Assembly: GCF_030268045.1 (NCBI RefSeq)
Contig: NZ_BSDC01000001.1
Location: forward strand, 868,001 to 932,000
Source: Geothrix edaphica
GTDB taxonomy: Bacteria; Acidobacteriota; Holophagae; Holophagales; Holophagaceae
Direction of reading: 5' to 3'
DNA length: 64,000 nucleotides
Shown here: one piece after another, positions 2,829-28,560 of the stretch
How positions within the stretch are numbered: position 1 is the stretch's first letter
How the letters are laid out: every line of letters begins with the position of its first letter
The notes under the pieces: model-generated
Told to the model about the DNA's origin: nothing
The model's database searches: none
The model's input: only the letters and a program-made list of their open reading frames with translations
Program-made: the position numbers and the translations under genes

Positions 2829-4016
2829 TCACTCGAACCCATCGAACAACCCCCGCTGCACGCCGTTGCCTGGGTCCGCCGGGAAGGGGAAGGCCGCGGG
2901 CGGGAACCAGGGGCGCTCAGGGTCGAAGGGCGGTGGTGGTGGCAGGTCCGGCGGCAGCCAGCGGAGGGCCGGGGCGGGCTGGATCTGGGCGAGCATGGCC
3001 TGGGCGCCGGCTTCGGGAGGCACCGCGGGCACCCGGAGGAGGATGGCCGGGGGATGATCCAGGGTGTCGGGCCAGGCCGCAGGCTGGAGGGCGCGGGCCT
3101 CCAGCGGTGCGGGATCCCGCGGATCCGCGGCGAGGCCGGGCGTGAAGGCCCCGGGGGCAGGGGGGAGCGGCAGGCTCGCCCGCCAGGGCAGGCCCTCCCG
3201 CAGGGCCTGGCGTCCGAGCAGGGCCGCGAGCCGCGGATCGCCGCAGGCGCCCAGATGGATGGGCGTCCTCAGCCGCTCCTGGAGCAGGGCCTTCAGGGCC
3301 CGCAGCTGCCCGAAAGCCGCGGGCCAGGCTCCCCCGGCCCGCTGGAACTCGATGCCGCCCACCAGGGCCAGACGCCAGCCAGCGGCCCGGCGCAGGAAGG
3401 GGAGGTCCACCCAGGCGTTCGCCGACATGCGCTGGGCCAGGCCCCGCTCCGCCGCGCCCTGGGCTTCCGACATGGCGGCGGCCAGGGCCTCGCCCGAAGC
3501 CAGGGTGGAGAGGGCCCCGATGGGCAGGGTCACCTCGCCCCAGAGCCAGCCGGGAGGCACTTCATCGCCGGGCGCGGGGGTGCCCAGGTCAGGCAGGTGC
3601 CAGGCGATTCCGGTCCGTAGAACCCAGCCCACGACGCCCTGGCGCCAGGCCTCGCCGAGCGGGCCCTCGGGCATCTCCGGGGCATGGAGCCAGGCCCGGA
3701 AGGCGCCTCCGGGCAGCTGGGCCGCCGCATCCGGCCCCAGGTGCAGGGTCAGGCCGGGAATGGCCGAGATGGCCTCCCACCAGCCCTGTCGGGATTCCGC
3801 GGGGAGGGCCTCCATCCAGGCCGGGGGGTGGTCCCAAATCAGGCCGAAGCCGCCGGGGAGCAGGGCCGCCAGGTTCATGAGCCGGGCCAGGGCACGGCCC
3901 GGCGCCGCATGCACCGAGGCCAGCCCTTCTTCCAGGAACCGCGAGCCCGCCCAGCCCGCCCAGGGGCCGTCGGTCGCCGCGCGCAGCATGAAGCCCCGGC
4001 CTTCGTTCTCCGTCAC
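2829..4016 (-). CDS. Hypothetical protein in the thiD operon
   Basis: A 395-residue protein I do not recognise. It is rich in Ala, Pro, Leu and Trp, with no signal peptide, no clear membrane segment and no nucleotide-binding motif. The C-terminal third is proline-rich (PPDLPPPPPFDPERPWFPP), suggesting a disordered linker before a short end (GLFDGFE). It starts with GTG overlapping the thiD stop (GTGA), so the two are translationally coupled, and the cation efflux gene follows 43 bases later. The reading frame is supported by the coupling and by the operon packing rather than by homology. It could act with ThiD, but nothing in the sequence shows this. Confidence 0.65.
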   Translation of the reverse strand: MTENEGRGFMLRAATDGPWAGWAGSRFLEEGLASVHAAPGRALARLMNLAALLPGGFGLIWDHPPAWMEALPAESRQGWWEAISAIPGLTLHLGPDAAAQLPGGAFRAWLHAPEMPEGPLGEAWRQGVVGWVLRTGIAWHLPDLGTPAPGDEVPPGWLWGEVTLPIGALSTLASGEALAAAMSEAQGAAERGLAQRMSANAWVDLPFLRRAAGWRLALVGGIEFQRAGGAWPAAFGQLRALKALLQERLRTPIHLGACGDPRLAALLGRQALREGLPWRASLPLPPAPGAFTPGLAADPRDPAPLEARALQPAAWPDTLDHPPAILLRVPAVPPEAGAQAMLAQIQPAPALRWLPPDLPPPPPFDPERPWFPPAAFPFPADPGNGVQRGLFDGFE

Positions 4017-17704: not shown

Positions 17705-19113
17705 CAGCGCACCTCCATGCGGCGGACATCCGTGAAGTGGCCCGCCACGGCGGCGGCGGCGGCCATGGCCGGGCTCACGAGGTGGGTGCGGCTGCCGCGG
17801 CCCTGGCGGCCCTCGAAGTTGCGGTTGCTGGTGCTGGCGCAGCGCACCCCGGCCTCCAGGCGGTCCTCGTTCATGCCGAGGCACATGCTGCAGCCGGGCT
17901 GGCGCCACTCGAAGCCCGCCTCCAGGAAGATGCGGTCCAGGCCCTCGGCCTCGGCCTGGCGCTTCACCAGGCCCGAACCGGGAACCACCAGTGCCCGCAC
18001 GCCCTGCGCCACCTTCCGGCCGCGGGCGATGCCTGCGGCTTCGCGCAGGTCCTCGATGCGGCCGTTGGTGCACGAGCCGATGAACACGGCCTGGATGCCG
18101 ATGGCCTCCATGGGCGTGCCCGGCTCCAGACCCATGTAGGCCAAGGCCCGCAGGATGGCTTCGCGCTCATCTGCGTTGCGGCCCTGGGCAGGATCCGGCA
18201 CGCGGCCCGTGATGTCCGTGACCCACTGGGGGCTGGTGCCCCAGGTGACCTGGGGCGCGAGGTCGTGGAGGTCGATCACCACCTCCTGGTCGAAGACCGC
18301 CTCAGAATCCGAGACGAGGGTGCGCCAGTGGGCCACCGCGGCGTCCCACAGGGCGCCCTTCGGCGCGAGGGGTCGCCCCGCCACGTAGGCGAAGGTGGTG
18401 TCGTCGGGGGCCACCAGGCCCGCCCGGGCGCCGCCCTCGATGCTCATGTTGCAGAGGGTCATGCGGCCCTCCATGGAGAGGGCGCGGACGGCGGGACCCG
18501 TGTACTCCATCACGCAGCCCGTGCCGCCCGCGGTGCCGATCTGGCCGATGAGGCGCAGGGCCATGTCCTTGGCGCCGGTGCCCGGGGGCAGGCCGCCCTC
18601 GAACCGCACCCGCAGGTTCTTCGAGCGGCGCTGGGGCAGGGTCTGGGTGGCCATGACGTGCTCCACCTCGCTGGTGCCGATGCCGAAGGCCAGGGCCCCG
18701 AAGGCGCCGTGGGTGCTGGTATGGCTGTCCCCGCAGACCACGGTGGCGCCGGGCAGGGTGAAGCCCTGCTCCGGGCCCACCACGTGGACGATGCCCTGGC
18801 GGTCGTCCAGGAGGGGGATGTAGGGCACGCCATGGGCCTTCACGTTCGCTTCGAGCGCCTCGACCTGGAGGCGGCAGGTCTCGTCGGCGATGCCCTTCTC
18901 CCGGTCCGCCGTGGGGACGTTGTGGTCCGCCACGGAGAGGATCTGCTCCGGCCGGCGCAGGGGGCGCCCCGCGAGGACCAAGCCCTCGAAGGCCTGCGGG
19001 CTGGTGACCTCGTGGACCAGGTGGCGGTCGATGTAGAGGAGGCTGGTGCCGTCGGCGCGGGTGGCCACCAGATGCTCGTCCCAGATCTTGTCGTAGAGGG
19101 TGCGCGGGCTCAT
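17704..19113 (-). CDS. leuC: 3-isopropylmalate dehydratase large subunit
   Basis: A 469-residue aconitase-superfamily subunit that carries the 4Fe-4S cluster. Visible signatures are [17 protein letters not shown] at the N terminus, [28 protein letters not shown] in the middle, and the cluster ligands in [13 protein letters not shown] and, with the CxxC pair, [10 protein letters not shown] near the C terminus. Length is normal for bacterial LeuC. The ATG overlaps the stop of the LysR gene (ATGA), so the regulator and the enzyme are translated from one message. Confidence 0.97.
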
Positions 19114-20030
19114 GGGCTCTTCCTAGCTGGAACGGGGTCGGGGCGGTCGAGGTCGAGGGAGCGGATCAGGTCGAGGAAGGCCCGGGTGGCCGGGGAGAGG
19201 GCCGCCTCCCGGCGGGTGACGATGCGGATGAGCTTCTCCACCTGGAGCTCCCGCACGGGGATCTCCACCAGCCGGCCCTCGCGGACGGCGGTGGTGGTGG
19301 TCATCCGGGGCAGGATGGCCAGGCCGGCGCCCAGGCTCACGAACTCCAGGATGGTGGCGATGGAGGCCAGCTCCATGGTGAGGCGCAAGGGCGTGTTGCA
19401 GCGGGCGAACAGCTCGATGATGGCGGTCCGGGTGGGGGTGGGCGCGTTGTGGGCCACGAAGCGCTCGTCCCCCAGGTCGGTGATGCTGAGGTTCTTCTTC
19501 CGGGCGAACCGATGCCCCGGCGGCGCCACCAGGACCATGCGGTCCCGGTGGATGACCTGGCTCACCAGCTCGGGATGGAGGGCGTCGTAGGAGACGAAGC
19601 CCACATCCAGGCGCCGCTCCAGCACCTCCGTGGGGATGCGCTCCGAGGTCTGGCGGTAGGCCTGGATCTTGATGGCCGGCCAGGCCTGCTGGTAGGCCAG
19701 GAGGATCCGCGGGAGCAGGAACTCGGACACGCTCTCGTTGGCGCCCACGTTCAGGCGACCCTGCTGGAGGCCCTTCAGGGCCCCGAAGGTGTCGAGGATC
19801 TCCTGGCGCAGGTCGAACATGCGCTGGGCCAGGGGGAGCAGGGTGGCGCCGGCATCCGTGAGGGTGCCCCCCTTGGTGGTGCGGTCCACCAGGGTCTCGC
19901 CCAGCTCCTCCTCCAGGCGCTTCAGGGCGAGGCTCACGGCAGGCTGCGTCCGGAAGAGGCGCTCCGCCGCGCGGGAGAAGCTCTTCTCGCGCGCCAGCAC
20001 CAGGAATGTTTCCAGCTGCCCGAGGTCCAT
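19110..20030 (-). CDS. LysR family transcriptional regulator of the leu/ilv locus
   Basis: A 306-residue LysR protein. The N-terminal helix-turn-helix is [39 protein letters not shown] (residues about 5-45); the rest is the effector-binding domain. The ATG at 20030 has GGAGG four bases upstream. It is divergent from leuA with a 133-base gap holding an ATTAC-N4-GTAAT palindrome, and its stop overlaps leuC. By position it should control both leuCD and leuA and sense a branched-chain pathway intermediate, as IlvY, LeuO or LeuB-linked LysR proteins do elsewhere. That role is inferred. Confidence 0.88.
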
Positions 20031-20063
20031 GGACCCTCCGCCAGGAAGTGTAGGATTCCAAGT

Positions 20064-20077
20064 ATTACTTATGTAAT
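20064..20077. promoter_or_regulatory. Probable LysR-type operator between the LysR gene and leuA
   Basis: ATTACTTATGTAAT is a perfect 5-bp inverted repeat with a 4-base centre, in an AT-rich divergent control region (20031-20163). It sits 34 bases from the LysR start and about 87 bases from leuA, where LysR proteins usually bind for autoregulation and activation. An AT-rich run (20079-20100) follows on the leuA side. Confidence 0.55.
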
Positions 20078-20163
20078 CATAAAAAAAATTAAATGTATTT
20101 ATGGGTTGGATTGGGTGATCTTCGATTGATCCCACCGGCTCCGGCCGGTCCAGGAGCACCGTC

Positions 20164-21861: not shown

Positions 21862-22998
21862 GTGGAAGCCCGCATCACCCTTCTTCCCGGCGACGGCGTG
21901 GGCCCCGAAGTGGTCCACGAGGCCGCCGCCTGCCTCACGGCCGTGGCCAAGGCCTATGGCCACCGGTTCCACCTGGAGGAGGCCCTCATCGGGGGTGCCG
22001 CAGTGGACGCCACCGGGGATCCGTTGCCGGCGGCCACCCTGGCCCGGTGCCAGGCGAGCCAGGCGGTCCTGCTGGGCGCCGTGGGCGGGCCCGCCTGGGA
22101 CCGCCACCCCCGGGACCAGCGGCCCGAATCCGGCCTCCTGCGCCTGCGGCGGTCCCTGGGTCTCTACGCCAACCTCCGCCCCGTCAAGGTCCACCCGGCC
22201 CTGGAGGATGCCTCGCCCCTGCGCCCGGAGGTGACCCACGGCACGGACCTGATGATCGTCCGCGAGCTGGGCGGCGGCCTCTACTTCGGCGAGCCGCGCT
22301 CCTTCTCGGACGAGCGCGCCGTGAACACGCTGCCCTACACGCGCACCGAGATCGAGCAGGTGGCCCGCGTGGCCTTCGAGCTGGCCGCCTCCCGCCGGCG
22401 CCGGCTGGTCTCCGTGGACAAGGCCAACGTGCTGGAGACCTCCCGTCTCTGGCGCCAGATCGTGGACGAGTTGGCTCCCTCCTATCCGACGGTGCAGGTC
22501 ACCCACGCCTATGTGGACAGCTTCGCCATGGCCCTCATCACCCGGCCCCGGGACTTCGATGTGGTGCTGACGGAAAACCTCTTCGGGGACATCCTCAGCG
22601 ACGAGGCGGCGGTGCTGGCGGGCTCGCTGGGGCTGCTGCCCTCCGCCAGCCTGGGCGGCCCCGTGGGCCTCTACGAGCCCATCCACGGCTCGGCGCCGGA
22701 CATCGCGGGCCGGGATGCGGCCAATCCCATCGGCACCATCCTCTCGGCGGCCATGCTGCTCCGCCACAGCCTCCGCCTCGAGACCGAGGCCCTGGCCCTC
22801 GAAGCCGCCGTGGACCGTGTGCTCAAGGGTGGCCACGGCACCTCGGACCTGGGAGGCCTCAAGCACCAGCACGGCACCCGGGCCCTCGGCGAGCGGATCC
22901 GCGAAGCCATCCGCCCGCCGCGCGCCAAAGGAGCCCGGCTTGCCGACTCCGCCTATGCCTGGTGCGGTTCGCCCGAAGGCGCCCGCTCCCACCTCTGA
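21862..22998 (+). CDS. leuB: 3-isopropylmalate dehydrogenase
   Basis: A 378-residue beta-decarboxylating dehydrogenase, third step of leucine synthesis, using NAD+ and Mg2+ or Mn2+. [15 protein letters not shown] starts the protein, GAVGGPAWD follows, and the NAD-site and metal signatures are [15 protein letters not shown] and [57 protein letters not shown] is the C-terminal hallmark. It starts with GTG behind GGGGAG at 7 bases. A stretch of about 25 extra residues after the usual end ([15 protein letters not shown]) is slightly unusual. Confidence 0.96.
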
Positions 22999-23022: not shown

Positions 23023-23127
23023 ATGCTCCCTGCCTCCCCCAGCCCCGACGTGACCTCCGCCTTCGAGGCGGGGTCCATCGCCGTGATCAACCGGCTGCCC
23101 GGGCTGGTGCTGTGGCTGGCGGGCTAG
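23023..23127 (+). CDS. Attenuator leader peptide 1 (34 codons, Leu/Val/Ile-rich)
   Basis: An ATG 24 bases after the leuB stop opens a 34-codon frame that ends in TAG. Codons 19-32 encode IAVINRLPGLVLWL: 8 of 14 are Ile, Val or Leu. It is followed after 27 bases by a GC-rich terminator hairpin. The run GGGGAGGGG at 23127-23135, overlapping the stop codon, can pair with the CCCC tracts of the hairpin's left side and loop as a rival structure. This is the layout of an amino-acid attenuator. A weak GGAAAC lies 6 bases before the ATG. Translation is inferred. Confidence 0.65.
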   Translation: MLPASPSPDVTSAFEAGSIAVINRLPGLVLWLAG

Positions 23128-23154
23128 GGGAGGGGACGACACCACACGGAACCC

Positions 23155-23180
23155 GGCCCCGCACCCCACCAGGCGGGGCC
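23155..23180 (+). terminator. Attenuator terminator 1 upstream of ilvD
   Basis: GGCCCCGC (23155-23162) and GCGGGGCC (23173-23180) form a perfect 8-bp stem with a 10-base loop, followed by TTTCC. The T-run is short. The same arms and the following CACATCGG recur 285-287 bases downstream in attenuator 2. Confidence 0.65.
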
Positions 23181-23252
23181 TTTCCACATCGGCCAGACCC
23201 TTTCCGCGACCTCCCGAGGGACCCCATGACCCGAACAGCACAGACTTCAGCC

Positions 23253-23281
23253 TTGACTTTTTCCACACGAACCCGGAAACT
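23253..23281 (+). promoter_or_regulatory. Possible internal promoter before leader peptide 2
   Basis: TTGACT (23253-23258), a 17-base spacer and GAAACT (23276-23281). The -35 is good and the -10 poor. A start point near 23289 would nearly coincide with the ATG of leader 2, implying a leaderless leader peptide. It would let ilvDBNC be transcribed apart from leuAB. Confidence 0.3.
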
Positions 23282-23289
23282 CGTCCGCC

Positions 23290-23415
23290 ATGAGCCTCTC
23301 CCACCTCGACCACTCGGCAGCCGCGGCGACTTCGCCCGTGGTGCTGCGCCCCGTGGCCGGCCTGGTGGCCATTTCCGCCGTGCTGATTATTAGCGGCGAG
23401 GTGGGGGCCTCCTAG
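23290..23415 (+). CDS. Attenuator leader peptide 2 (41 codons, ilv type)
   Basis: A 41-codon frame ending in TAG, 24 bases before a strong terminator hairpin. Codons 17-38 read [18 protein letters not shown] then SGEV: 6 Val, 3 Leu and 3 Ile in 22 codons, with paired GTG GTG and ATT ATT. This closely resembles the ilvGMEDA leader peptide of enterobacteria in style. The last codons (GAG GTG GGG GCC) contain GGTGGGGGCC (23400-23409), complementary to the left arm GGCCCCGCACC (23440-23450). A ribosome stalled at Ile or Val codons would leave it free to act as antiterminator; one reaching the stop would cover it. The ribosome binding site is weak (GGAAAC). Confidence 0.75.
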
Positions 23416-23439
23416 ACGTTCTCGGAACCAACCGAAACC

Positions 23440-23467
23440 GGCCCCGCACCTCGAAGGATGCGGGGCC
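23440..23467 (+). terminator. Attenuator terminator 2 upstream of ilvD
   Basis: GGCCCCGCA (23440-23448) and TGCGGGGCC (23459-23467) form a perfect 9-bp stem with a 10-base loop, followed by TTTTC. It ends about 50 bases before the ilvD start and follows leader peptide 2. A competing pairing with 23400-23409 is possible. Best explained as the terminator of a translation-coupled ilv attenuator. Confidence 0.8.
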
Positions 23468-23521
23468 TTTTCACATCGGTCCTGCCATTCCGAGGTCGGC
23501 GGCCTTCCACAGAGGAAGACC

Positions 23522-25210
23522 ATGACAGTCCCAGGACAGCCGCTCAACGCCCGCAGCCGGGCCATCACCCAGGGCCCCAACCGCGCTCCCGCCCGGGCCA
23601 TGCTCAAGGCCATCGGCTTCACGGACGAGGATCTGGCCAAGCCCATCATCGGCATCGCGAACACCTGGACCGAGATCGGTCCCTGCAACTACCACCTGCG
23701 CGAGCTGGCGGAGCGCGTGAAGGCGGGCGTCCGCGCCGCCGGCGGCACGCCCATGGAGTTCTGCACCGTCTCCATCAGCGACGGCATCACCATGGGCACC
23801 GAAGGCATGAAGGCCTCCCTCGTGAGCCGCGAGGTCATCGCCGATTCCATCGAGCTGGTGGCCCGGGGCAACGCCTTCGACGGAATGGTCTGCCTCTCGG
23901 GCTGCGACAAGACCAACCCCGGCGTGGCCATGGCCCTGGCCCGCCTGGACATCCCCGGCCTGATCCTCTATGGCGGGTCCACGGCCTCGGGACACTGCGA
24001 CGGGAAGGACCTCACCGTGCAGGATGTCTTCGAGGCCGTGGGCGCGCACAGTGCGGGCCGCCTGGATGACGCGGGCCTGAAGGAGGTGGAGGACGCTGCC
24101 TGTCCCGGCGCCGGGGCCTGCGGCGGGCAGTTCACGGCCAACACCATGTCCGCCAGCCTGGAGCTCCTCGGCCTCAGTCCCATGGGCCTCAATGGCATCC
24201 CCGCCGAGGATCCCCGCAAGGGCGAGGCCGCCGAGACCTGCGGGCGTCTGGTGATGGAACTGCTGAAGCGCGACCTGCGCCCCAGCGCCATCCTCACGCG
24301 GGAGGCCTTCGAGAATGCCGTGGCTGCCGTGGCCGCCACGGGCGGCTCCACCAACGCCGTCCTGCACTACCTGGCCCTGGCCCGGGAGGCGGGTGTGCCC
24401 TTCACCCTGGAGGACTTCGACCGGGTCAGCGCCCGCACGCCCCTGCTGGCGGACATGAAGCCCGGCGGGCGGTTCATGGCGCCGGACCTGCACGCCGCCG
24501 GCGGCATCCGCCTCGTGGCGAACCGCCTGCTGGAGGGCGGGCTCATCCACGGCGCGGCCCTCACCGTGACCGGCCGCACGCTGGCCGAAGAGTTGGCCGG
24601 CGCGCCGGAAACGCCCGGGCAGGAGGTGGTGCGCCCCTTCGACAAGCCCATCAAGCCCACGGGCGGCCTCGTGATCCTGCGCGGCAGTCTGGCGCCGGAG
24701 GGCTGCGTCATCAAGGTGGCGGGCCACGAGCGCCTGCATCACACCGGTCCCGCCCGGGTCTTCGAGCACGAGGAGGACGCCTTCGCCGCCGTGCAGGCAG
24801 GCCGCATCGAGCCCGGCGACGTGGTCGTCATCCGCTACGAGGGCCCCAAGGGCGGGCCCGGCATGCGCGAGATGCTGGGCGTCACCGCGGCCCTGGTGGG
24901 CGCCGGGCTCGGCGAATCCGTGGCGCTGCTCACCGATGGCCGCTTCTCGGGCGCCACCCGGGGCCTGATGGCCGGCCACGTGGCGCCGGAGGCGGCCGTG
25001 GGCGGCCCCATCGCCCTGGTGCGCGAGGGCGACACAGTGGTGATGGACATCCCCTCGCGGCGCCTGGACCTGAAGGTTCAGGAGGACGAGCTCGCGCGGC
25101 GCAAGGCCGAGTGGAAGGCCCCGGCCCCGCGATACAAGACCGGCGTCTTCGCCAAGTACGCCGCCACGGTCGCCAGCGCGGCCGAGGGCGCCATCACCCT
25201 GGCCCGGTGA
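23522..25210 (+). CDS. ilvD: Dihydroxy-acid dehydratase
   Basis: A 562-residue Fe-S dehydratase that forms 2-keto acids from dihydroxy acids in isoleucine and valine synthesis. Cluster cysteines are in [33 protein letters not shown] and [21 protein letters not shown]. The C-terminal part has [30 protein letters not shown]. Length fits the IlvD subgroup of bacterial 2Fe-2S or 4Fe-4S dehydratases. The ATG has GAGGA 6 bases upstream. It is the first structural gene after the two attenuators and is followed 10 bases later by ilvB. Confidence 0.97.
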
Positions 25211-25220
25211 AGGGGGAACC

Positions 25221-26951
25221 ATGACTAGGACTGGATCGCATACCGGGGCCCAGCTCATCTGGGAATGCCTTATCCGGGAGGGCGTCACCACCGTCTTCGG
25301 CTATCCGGGCGGCGCCATCCTCCCGGCCTACGACGCCATGGTGGGCTTCGACATCCGGCACGTGCTGGTGCGCCACGAGCAGAGCGCCGTGCACATGGCG
25401 GACGGCTACGCCCGCGCCTCGGGCCGCGTGGGTGTGGTGGTGGCCACCTCCGGCCCCGGCGCCACGAACCTGGTGACGGGCCTGGCCACGGCCATGATGG
25501 ATTCCACGCCCCTGGTGGCCATCACGGGGCAGGTGGGCTCCGGCGTGCTGGGCACGGACGCCTTCCAGGAAGTGGACATCACGGGCATCACCCTGCCCGT
25601 GACCAAGCACAACTACCTGGTCACCCGGGCCGCGGACATCGTGCCGGCCCTGCGGGAGGCCTTCGCCGTGGCGAAGAGCGGGCGCCCCGGCCCTGTGCTG
25701 GTGGACATCACCAAGGACGCCCAGCAGGGCCGGGCAGAGCTTGATTGGGAGGCGGCGGAGCCCATCCGCCACCTGCGCCACCTGCCGCCCCCCCTGGATC
25801 CCGAGGCCCTGGCCCGGGCCCTGGAGCTGATCCGCCATGCCAAGCGGCCCCTCATCCTGGCGGGCCACGGCATCCAGATGTCGGGCGCCCGGGCCGAGGT
25901 GCTGACCCTGGCGGAACGGGCGGACATCCCCTTCGCGTTGACCTTGCTGGGGCTGGGCGCGGTGCCCGCCACGCATCCCCTCAGCCTCGGCATGATGGGC
26001 ATGCACGGCGAGTCCTGGGTCAACAAGGCCATCCAGGAGGCGGACCTCCTGCTGGCCCTGGGCATGCGGTTCGACGACCGCGTGACCGGCAAGCTCAAGG
26101 AGTACGCGCCCCACGCCAAGAAGATCCACATCGACATCGACGCCAGCGAGCTGGGGAAGAACGTGCCGGTGGACGTGGCCATCGCCGGGGACCTGCTCGC
26201 CGTCCTCCGCGCCCTGCTGCCGGGGGTAGAGGTGGCGGACCGCTCCAAGTGGCTGAAGCAGATCCGCGGCTGGCGGGGCGATTCCGCCGTCCGCGACATC
26301 AAGAACCTGCCCGACGACGGCCACCTCTATGCCGCCCATGTGATGCACGACCTCTGGCGGCTCACCGACGGCAAGGCGGTGGTGGTGACGGACGTGGGCC
26401 AGCACCAGATGTGGGAGGCCCAGTACTACCACCACGATGAGGAGCGCAGCCTCATCACCAGCGGCGGCGCGGGCACCATGGGCTTCGCCCTCCCCGCTGC
26501 CATCGGCGCGAAGGTGGCCCGGCCCGAGGCCGAGGTCTGGGTGGTGGCCGGCGACGGCGGCTTCCAGATGACCTTCGCGGAGCTGATGACCGCCGTGCAG
26601 GAGGGGGTGAAGGTCAACATCGCCATCATCAACAACGGCTTCCTCGGCATGGTCCGCCAGTGGCAGGAGCTGTTCTACGAGGGCCGCTACGCTGCCACGC
26701 CCATCCTGTCACCGGACTTCGTGAAGCTGGCTGGCGCCTTCGGCATCCACGGCCAGCGCGTGGACACGCGGGCGGATCTGGCAGGGGCCGTGGCCGCGGC
26801 CCGGGCCGCGGAGGGCACGGCCCTCGTCGAGTTCCGGGTGGAGCAGGAGGACAGCGTCTATCCCATGGTCCCCGCCGGGGCGGCGCTGCACGAGATGATC
26901 CGCCGGCCTTCTGCCAGCGCCATTGCCGAAACCGGGTCCGACCCTGTCTGA
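25221..26951 (+). CDS. ilvB: Acetolactate synthase, catalytic subunit
   Basis: A 576-residue ThDP enzyme that condenses two pyruvates, or pyruvate and 2-ketobutyrate, at the branch point of valine/leucine and isoleucine synthesis. The N-terminal domain has VTTVFGYPGGAILPAYDAM and VRHEQSAVHMADGYARASG with the catalytic Glu. The middle FAD domain has LALGMRFDDRVTGKL. The ThDP/Mg site is VVAGDGGFQMTFAELMTAV followed by NNGFLGMVRQWQELFY, the latter typical of anabolic AHAS. AAGGGGGAACC lies before the ATG. The regulatory subunit gene follows 10 bases later. Confidence 0.97.
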   Translation: MTRTGSHTGAQLIWECLIREGVTTVFGYPGGAILPAYDAMVGFDIRHVLVRHEQSAVHMADGYARASGRVGVVVATSGPGATNLVTGLATAMMDSTPLVAITGQVGSGVLGTDAFQEVDITGITLPVTKHNYLVTRAADIVPALREAFAVAKSGRPGPVLVDITKDAQQGRAELDWEAAEPIRHLRHLPPPLDPEALARALELIRHAKRPLILAGHGIQMSGARAEVLTLAERADIPFALTLLGLGAVPATHPLSLGMMGMHGESWVNKAIQEADLLLALGMRFDDRVTGKLKEYAPHAKKIHIDIDASELGKNVPVDVAIAGDLLAVLRALLPGVEVADRSKWLKQIRGWRGDSAVRDIKNLPDDGHLYAAHVMHDLWRLTDGKAVVVTDVGQHQMWEAQYYHHDEERSLITSGGAGTMGFALPAAIGAKVARPEAEVWVVAGDGGFQMTFAELMTAVQEGVKVNIAIINNGFLGMVRQWQELFYEGRYAATPILSPDFVKLAGAFGIHGQRVDTRADLAGAVAAARAAEGTALVEFRVEQEDSVYPMVPAGAALHEMIRRPSASAIAETGSDPV

Positions 26952-26961
26952 AAGGAACCCC

Positions 26962-27501
26962 ATGCCCCATGTGCTCGTGGTCTATACCGATGATGAACCG
27001 GGCGTGCTGACCCGCGTGGCTTCCCTGTTCCGCCGCCGGGGCTTCAACATCCACTCCCTCACCGTGGGCCCCACGGAGCGTTCCCGGCAGGCCCGCATGA
27101 CCATCGTGGTGGATGCGGAGGAAGCCACCGTGCGGCTGGCGGTGGAACATCTGCGGAAGCAGGTGAACGTCCTCGAGGTGCAGCAGCTGGGCGACCGCCC
27201 GAAGGTGGTGCGGGACCTGGCCCTCATCCGGGTGGCGGCGGGGCTGGATGTCCGCTCCGAGATCCTCCAGCTGGCCCAGGTCTTCCGCGCCAACGTGGTG
27301 GACATCGCCGGCGACAGCCTGGCCATCGAGTGCAGCGGTGGCCCCGACAAGATCGATGCCCTGGTGGATGCCCTGCGCCCCTTCGGGATCCTCGAGCTGG
27401 GCCGCACGGGCGCCGTCGCCATGGCCCGCGGCCCGCGCGCTTCGCCGGAGCGCCCCGCCGCAGCCCCCCCACCGGCCAGCAACCAGGCCATGTCTGTCTG
27501 A
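26962..27501 (+). CDS. ilvN: Acetolactate synthase, regulatory subunit
   Basis: A 179-residue regulatory subunit. Residues 1-75 form an ACT domain (VVYTDDEPGVLTRVASLFRRRGFNIHSLTVGPTE), which binds valine and confers feedback inhibition. The second half (VVRDLALIRVAAG ... AQVFRANVVDIAGDSLAIECSGGPDKIDALVDALRPFGILELGRTGAVAMARG) is the C-terminal domain of full-length small subunits. The tail is Pro/Ala-rich and probably disordered. The ATG at 26962 is chosen on the AAAGGAA ribosome binding site 5 bases upstream and the family start. Confidence 0.95.
   Translation: MPHVLVVYTDDEPGVLTRVASLFRRRGFNIHSLTVGPTERSRQARMTIVVDAEEATVRLAVEHLRKQVNVLEVQQLGDRPKVVRDLALIRVAAGLDVRSEILQLAQVFRANVVDIAGDSLAIECSGGPDKIDALVDALRPFGILELGRTGAVAMARGPRASPERPAAAPPPASNQAMSV

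Positions 27502-27537: not shown

Positions 27538-28560
<1,023 letters not shown>

Follow-up and report, generated by a model that had tools for sequence, protein, structure and literature searches.

Gene order and leaders between leuB and ilvD

The stretch under study (the window, 64,000 nucleotides; G000:C1:868001-932000, G000 being the window's genome) belongs to Geothrix (Holophagaceae, Acidobacteriota), and its nearest named relatives by ilvD are Geothrix campi, G. terrae, G. fuzhouensis, G. paludis and Geothrix sp. SG200 (95-97% identity). On the + strand, leuA (20164) is followed by leuB, a gap of 523 bases, and then ilvD, ilvB, ilvN and ilvC; leuC is located on the opposite strand. Gene names were taken from NCBIfam matches above cut-off:

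21862-22998, + strand: leuB, 3-isopropylmalate dehydrogenase, preceding the attenuators (TIGR00169, 480 bits, cut-off 353)
23522-25210, + strand: ilvD, dihydroxy-acid dehydratase, first controlled gene (TIGR00110, 706 bits, cut-off 618)
25221-26951, + strand: ilvB, acetolactate synthase large subunit (TIGR00118, 709 bits, cut-off 538)
26962-27501, + strand: ilvN, acetolactate synthase small subunit, with a start codon of our choice (TIGR00119, 168 bits, cut-off 57)
27538-28560, + strand: ilvC, ketol-acid reductoisomerase (TIGR00465, 423 bits, cut-off 226)

A LysR-like regulator frame (window 19113-20030, minus strand) is oriented divergently to leuA, and the spacer at 20060-20130 is AT-rich; many LysR models matched this frame, none of them over its cut-off among the 25 matches listed. 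A leader peptide was not seen in the stretch upstream of leuA that was read.

The gap after leuB contains two attenuator units. Type 2 refers to the unit of the earlier note (ORF 23290-23415), and type 1 to an upstream unit (ORF 23023-23127). The upstream attenuator (23023-23183) was absent from that note, as was the putative promoter at 23253-23281. The features are as follows:

23023-23127, + strand: type-1 leader ORF, MLPASPSPDVTSAFEAGSIAVINRLPGLVLWLAG and stop codon (read directly)
23121-23134, + strand: type-1 segment 2, the antiterminator arm, overlapping the stop codon (folding)
23155-23183, + strand: type-1 terminator, GGCCCCGC...GCGGGGCC, then TTT (read directly)
23253-23281, + strand: putative type-2 promoter, -35 TTGACT (23253-23258), 17-nt spacer, -10 GAAACT (23276-23281), 8 nt to the ATG (sequence pattern)
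23290-23415, + strand: type-2 leader ORF, 41 codons, probably leaderless, ATG at 23290 and TAG at 23413-23415 (read directly)
23298-23308, + strand: type-2 segment 1, an optional pairing partner of segment 2 when the RNA is free (full-leader MFE fold; inconsistent across genomes)
23380-23391, + strand: type-2 control codons GTG CTG ATT ATT, directly upstream of the switching threshold (switch simulation)
23398-23409, + strand: type-2 segment 2, antiterminator arm within the last leader codons (folding, pairing)
23422-23435, + strand: type-2 mini-hairpin TCGG-AACCAA-CCGA within the antiterminator loop (folding)
23440-23452, + strand: type-2 segment 3, common to antiterminator and terminator (folding, pairing)
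23457-23471, + strand: type-2 segment 4 (up to 23467) and U tract TTTT (read directly, folding)

The earlier note proposed an ilv-type attenuator from a 41-codon frame carrying 12 Val/Leu/Ile codons within codons 17-38, and direct reading confirmed this frame, including GTG GTG at codons 17-18 and ATT ATT at codons 33-34. The 9-bp terminator was likewise found, with GGCCCCGCA (23440-23448) pairing with TGCGGGGCC (23459-23467) ahead of TTTT (23468-23471). The leader end does contain GGTGGGGGCC at 23400-23409, complementary to the left arm of the terminator; the extent claimed for this pairing was too short, since GAGGTGGGGGCC (23398-23409) and GGCCCCGCACCTC (23440-23452) form 12 pairs with one bulge. 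As bare duplexes, 2:3 and 3:4 of type 2 reached -24.1 and -20.5 kcal/mol, respectively. The full type-2 leader had a fold z-score of -3.65, with 0 of 200 shuffles as stable, and the whole type-1 leader folded modestly better than its shuffles (z-score -1.70; 11 of 200 as good). The T runs after the attenuator hairpins are short.

A frame of 55 codons (window 23226-23393), its ATG preceded by a purine-rich stretch, runs out of frame over part of the type-2 leader and terminates at the TAG within ATTATTAG. Similar frames of 55-56 codons occur in the six genomes compared of the seven that carry both attenuators, and the frame may be a remnant of an ilvD start.

The pattern TTGACW-N17-NANACT-N8-ATG was found at all 10 type-2 loci, relative in G061 to the second in-frame ATG. 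It matched the window once, with 0 expected; as the pattern was written after seeing the site, this single match is illustrative, and the 10 loci are the evidence. Transcription usually starts 6-9 nt after the -10 box. With the ATG 8 nt past the -10 box, the leader message would begin at or next to the AUG, and the type-2 leader message is probably leaderless, judging from this spacing.

Conservation of the attenuators within Geothrix

A search of 47 genus genomes with the type-2 core string, allowing at most 3 mismatches, found the core in 10, and the reversed control in 0. LeuB was matched in 47 of 47 genomes, but 11 had remote homologues only (best E 6e-54 or weaker); with G015 and G031 also left out (divergent leuB, no ilvD or ilvB in about 1.5 kb after it), 34 junctions were read. 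At least one attenuator was present at 31 of the 34 leuB-ilv junctions, giving 38 attenuators in 31 genomes, including one in G036 that the search pattern missed and that was added by hand. Type 1 stood alone at 14 junctions, had its leader formed by the end of leuB itself at 7, and was in tandem with type 2 at a further 7 (G000, G006, G007, G017, G024, G025 and G060); type 2 stood alone at 3 (G019, G028 and G061), and a leader was absent from the junction in G014, G030 and G035. The type-1 unit was thus found at 28 of 34 junctions, 7 of these using the LeuB tail. In all 38 attenuators, a terminator hairpin of the GGCCCCGCA type follows the leader stop at a distance of 21-30 nt. The 10 type-2 leaders have 41, 43 or 45 codons and the same stop, and the 43 codons of G061 become 41 from its second ATG. 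Conservation of the leader frame and the paired arms in relatives, which the earlier note had left as a check on its proposal, was observed within the genus.

The codon content followed the reading frame. Counts were made over the last 24 leader codons, the final one left out, and over fewer where the stretch was shorter. In type-2 leaders (n=10), the Val/Leu/Ile fraction was 0.48 in the leader frame versus 0.09 and 0.03 in the other frames; leader-frame means were 0.40 for the 21 free type-1 leaders and 0.40 for the 7 LeuB tails, with 0.01-0.10 in the other frames over all sets and 0.223 in eight neighbouring genes. In the LeuB tails, part of this excess may reflect the normal end helix of LeuB. 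Among Ile codons, ATT accounted for 29 of 31 in the type-2 leaders, for 16 of 60 in those 22 type-1 leaders whose ATG was recorded, and for 2 of 158 in the eight neighbouring genes. If the hairpins were plain terminators, placed after leuB and after a short untranslated leader, these Val/Leu/Ile-rich frames would be incidental. Strong hairpins with short T runs fit that explanation; the leader frame, however, had the highest Val/Leu/Ile content of the frames in 37 of 38 attenuators, despite diverged peptides. The Val/Leu/Ile excess is conserved in relatives.

In the alignments, the 3:4 pairing was intact in 97.6% of cells over 14 distinct type-2-like rows and in 100% over 21 type-1 rows. The 2:3 pairing was kept in 85.1% in the type-2-like set and, with the mini-hairpin, in 87.9% in the type-1 set, where the counterpart of the mini-hairpin was paired in 89.3% of cells. 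Changes on both sides were few and did not clearly exceed the controls, and for 2:3 they were not above them, as the arms are nearly invariant. Covariation as the main proof of the pairings was therefore not decisive, because the arms hardly vary. Outside the genus, L019 and L020 carry a C to A change that is matched by a U in segment 4 and, with the register set by hand, also in segment 2; manual reading was needed because the MAFFT alignment displaced segment 2 by one column in L019 and further sequences. The corresponding terminator pair is broken in L015, L017 and L018.

In a LeuB tree of 32 of the 34 junction genomes (G028 and G036 left out), the seven tandem genomes grouped with G008 (support 100/100), which has type 1 and no ilvD after leuB. 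Whole-gene transfer of ilvD together with the type-2 leader was not favoured, since the window's IlvD is 88-91% identical to those of type-1-only species versus 88 and 87% to those of type-2-only G019 and G028. In L128, L130, L137 and L138, ilvD is missing between leuB and ilvB, and a mini-ORF of about 20 codons past the type-1 terminator looks like a deletion scar of ilvD.

The LeuB-tail variant concerns seven congeners (L144, L145, L147, L149, L150, L152 and L153). LeuB in these lacks the last residues found in other species, and the leuB frame runs into the type-1 attenuator, with the leuB stop at the leader-stop position. A comparable situation was seen in hisD (TIGR00069; L170 near 3480-3700 of the reverse complement, and L171-L200), whose product has a His-rich tail: HHH occurs near the end in 14 of 30 congeners read, and by manual count at least 2 His are among the last five residues in 24 of 30 and none in 2. 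In many of them, a hairpin of the GGAGCGC...GCGCTCC type follows hisD, and then GCTTC...GGAAGC, with a poor T run. The hisD tail is possibly the leader of a candidate His attenuator.

Predicted switching and competing explanations

For the simulation, the RNA made before segment 4 was folded with the ribosome masking all positions as far as 12 nt beyond the first nucleotide of the A-site codon, and stalls were placed 6 codons (type 1) or 9 codons (type 2) upstream of the stop. With the ribosome at the stop, segment 3 paired with segment 2 at 0.00-0.07 in 38 of 38 attenuators; with a stalled ribosome, the 2:3 pairing rose to 0.79-1.00, again in 38 of 38. In the window's type 2, the antiterminator was formed at about 1.0 with the ribosome at the Ile-Ile codons and at 0.00 with the ribosome at the stop. 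The threshold fell between Gly-6 (0.33) and Ser-7 (1.00) before the stop, directly downstream of Ile-8, Ile-9, Leu-10 and Val-11. In the window's type 1, GGGG (23127-23130) is paired with 23157-23160 as long as segment 4 is absent (P 0.80 stalled, 0.00 at the stop). The type-1 transition falls around codons 2-4, on the border of LVLRLTG/LVLWLAG. The antiterminator loop of the attenuators encloses a small hairpin, which in most is TCGG...CCGA.

Once segment 4 was present, the terminator won at equilibrium in the window's type 2 at all 21 stall positions tried, so that the choice for antitermination must be kinetic, made during transcription. A purely thermodynamic switch was ruled out for this unit, and only a co-transcriptional version works. 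Before segment 4, free RNA formed 2:3 with P above 0.75 in 32 of 38 attenuators; for type 2, P was 0.85 in G000, 0.05 in G024, 0.26 in G025, 0.60 in G060 and 0.91-1.00 in the other six genomes. A protector helix 1:2, suggested by the MFE fold of the window, was rejected as a conserved part by folding across genomes.

As a control, the leader end and spacer were shuffled 60 times per copy. The pooled shuffles gave a mean of 0.45, and 24.7% of them were above 0.75; the fraction of single-copy shuffles doing as well was 0.12 for each window copy (12% equalled the type-1 pairing), 0.05-0.23 for type 2 and 0.00-0.17 for type 1. That a single copy is often equalled is compatible with plain terminators, and so is the finding that third codon positions of the leaders are no more variable than first and second positions: a protein-coding signal by codon position was tested, and none was obtained. 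Such an absence is also expected if only the codons matter in cis. Plain terminators do not account for the position of segment 2, at which a stalled and a terminating ribosome have opposite effects in all 38 attenuators, nor for the Trp, Phe and Thr leaders that precede the matching genes of the same genome (see below), and we consider them an improbable explanation.

A second possibility is that the leader acts in trans, as a small protein or as a terminated RNA of about 180 nt. The rnTrpL/peTrpL pair of Sinorhizobium meliloti is a leaderless attenuator leader with trans roles, in the available part of PMC7298713, and the C-terminal core of type 2 is conserved at the DNA level. This conserved part is, however, the antiterminator arm. 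Furthermore, amino-acid changes outnumbered silent ones by 34 to 9 among 8 of the 10 type-2 leaders and by 45 to 18 among 8 of the 28 type-1 leaders, a pattern unlike that of a peptide under selection as a protein. Attenuation and a role in trans could occur side by side; as the explanation of the locus, the trans role appears less probable still than plain terminators. Control of the terminator by a metabolite riboswitch or T-box independently of leader translation, which a structured leader before a biosynthetic operon could suggest, was rejected as scarcely credible, because no Rfam family matched the window at gathering score (five matches at the junction had E 0.25-7.6, all far below cut-offs, with Thr_leader at E 7.6) and the conserved element is a reading frame with codons matching the pathway.

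The anatomical steps of the attenuator logic set out in the earlier note hold in the window and in its relatives, antiterminator and terminator being mutually exclusive. Its comparison with enterobacterial ilvGMEDA stands as far as the way of working is concerned; common descent is not indicated, as no Rfam family matched at threshold. Anatomy, conservation, pairing and geometry were all obtained by calculation. Very probably, the unit before ilvDBNC is a real and conserved ribosome-mediated attenuator, ordinary in kind, one of two in series and in an unexpected phylum.

Translation of the leaders, termination, the starvation response and promoter use, which we infer, would combine as follows. 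At the second attenuator, RNA polymerase would start at the ATG of the 41-codon leader or within about two bases of it, and a ribosome would load on the almost leaderless message. When Ile, Leu or Val is short, the ribosome would wait at GTG CTG ATT ATT, leaving segment 2 available for pairing with segment 3 ahead of the synthesis of segment 4, with readthrough into ilvDBNC. When Ile, Leu and Val are plentiful, a ribosome at the stop would cover segment 2, segment 3 would pair with segment 4, and transcription would end near 23470. The first attenuator (23023-23183) would follow the same logic, with Leu/Val codons adjoining its threshold, and would gate transcripts from leuAB, which would have to pass both attenuators.

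Leaders at other loci and relation to known attenuators

Three further biosynthetic genes of the window's genome are preceded by candidate leaders:

about 1254-1440 of the reverse complement of L158 (G000:C1 near 1185417), reverse strand: trpE leader
about 1083-1210 of the reverse complement of L163: pheA leader
about 2390-2570 of the reverse complement of L162: thr leader

The leader before trpE (PF04715), MPLSFPTLRQGLLLGAWWWRTGLDGSLREA, contains three Trp codons (WWW) and is followed by a terminator; it has a TTGACA promoter with a likely -10 box ending 7-8 nt before the ATG. Homologous WWW leaders were found in G018, G027, G028 and G065, four of the six genomes matched by the trp pattern, which missed the window's own genome because of its longer spacing. 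The leader before pheA (PF00800) is MTLSRAFFFSFRTPGARVGGV (FFFSF), then a terminator, and the aspartokinase-homoserine dehydrogenase gene is preceded by a thr leader with QMMTTNGTITPT and a terminator. Simulated likewise, the thr leader gave a sharp switch between Val-5 (0.14) and Pro-7 (0.84) before the stop, adjoining the Thr codons. The trpE leader was blurred (0.07 at the stop, 0.17-0.66 over the Trp codons and 0.84 just upstream), and pheA was blurrier than trp (0.25 at the stop, 0.39-0.69 over the Phe codons). From their sequences, the predicted ilv, trp, phe and thr leaders indicate that leader-type attenuation is general in this genome.

Outside the genus, 78 ilvD loci (732 kb) were scanned mechanically for a Val/Leu/Ile-rich ORF followed by a terminator. 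Matches on the ilvD strand came from 5 of the 7 class or phylum relatives (L015 and L017-L020, but neither L016 nor L021) and from 12 of the 71 remaining loci, of which eight are from Opitutaceae or related bacteria and four from Acidobacteria; a single locus was matched on the other strand. Little can be read into the misses of this generic scan, because in the window it detects type 2 but not type 1. The class relatives L015 and L017-L020 have plainer leaders, with runs such as VVLVVVIIVI at the threshold. Tandem pairs of leaders precede ilvD in L015, L017 and L018, with IVVIIVVVIIS and VVLVVVIIVI among their runs, which places predicted serial attenuators in two families of the class (f1 and f3). 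On these comparisons, the predicted attenuation mechanism is older than the genus. In Opitutaceae and related Verrucomicrobia (L044, L061, L068, L069, L070, L074, L075 and L092), Leu/Ile/Val leaders, for example LNVLAALIIAVVILLTPSTGRLSHT, and terminators were observed right before ilvD.

The scheme resembles the enterobacterial ilvGMEDA, ilvBN, leu, thr, pheA and trp attenuators, for which the available part of PMC1183508 gives a short leader ORF with pathway codons, alternative 2:3 and 3:4 pairing and structural genes downstream. Geothrix differs in having no conserved 1:2 protector helix, a probably leaderless leader mRNA, and two attenuators in series inside the leu-ilv cluster after leuB. 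The likeness is one of scheme, as no curated leader family matched at gathering score.

Corynebacterium glutamicum ilvBNC is also preceded by a Val/Leu/Ile leader peptide (IlvL), with transcription starting one nucleotide from the leader start codon and a three-hairpin model; it has a 15-residue peptide in another phylum and an overlapping antiterminator and terminator laid out differently, and the part of PMC11857589 available describes one attenuator. A BCAA-rich leader and terminator precede ilvD in Staphylococcus aureus as well; this leucine-rich attenuator peptide of ilv-leu is Leu-responsive and combined with CodY, one attenuator being described in the accessible text of PMC5794164. In Salmonella mgtCBR, two short ORFs in one leader have been called tandem attenuators (PMC3641672, in part), in a virulence and Mg2+ transport operon, whereas in Geothrix both predicted sensors read BCAA and a putative promoter lies between them. 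The attenuator leader RNA of S. meliloti trpL (rnTrpL) begins with the ATG of the leader ORF, in the passages available of PMC7298713, but belongs to a trp operon in another phylum. Attenuator anatomy by itself can mislead, as in Streptomyces coelicolor, where ilvB is preceded by candidate regulatory codons whose alteration was without effect according to the part of PMC1262725 at hand.

According to a 2010 survey, hardly any of the predicted attenuators from Acidobacteria and other such phyla had a function tied to it (PMC2965389, available part). A limited literature search found no BCAA leader-peptide attenuator in Acidobacteria and no internal, intergenic or intercistronic attenuator with a leader peptide; Geothrix and leader peptide occur together in PMC8528874, whose available part has sulfur cycling as its topic. 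As far as the parts available of PMC11857589, PMC7298713, PMC5794164 and PMC1262725 go, leaderless leaders and BCAA attenuators are already known elsewhere. Less usual are the placement of two attenuators in series, the second with a promoter of its own that is probably leaderless, and the LeuB-tail variant. An E. coli-type textbook switch, little documented in Acidobacteriota, appears here twice in a row.

We hold tentatively, at a little under even odds, that two ribosome-read BCAA sensors work in series with a leaderless promoter between them, and that in a sister lineage the C-terminal codons of LeuB, and perhaps those of HisD in the his operon, have replaced the leader. If so, leu-derived transcripts would pass a two-step gate, and local transcripts would meet only the Ile-weighted second sensor. 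Why two sensors of the same amino acids should be stacked is a question that the tandem arrangement makes directly testable, in one genus with textbook-like ilv, trp, phe and thr leaders, many species to compare and named isolates. The tail of a working enzyme would, moreover, double as an amino acid sensor for the genes after it, and the LeuB-tail variant suggests how leader peptides might originate from ordinary genes or merge back into them.
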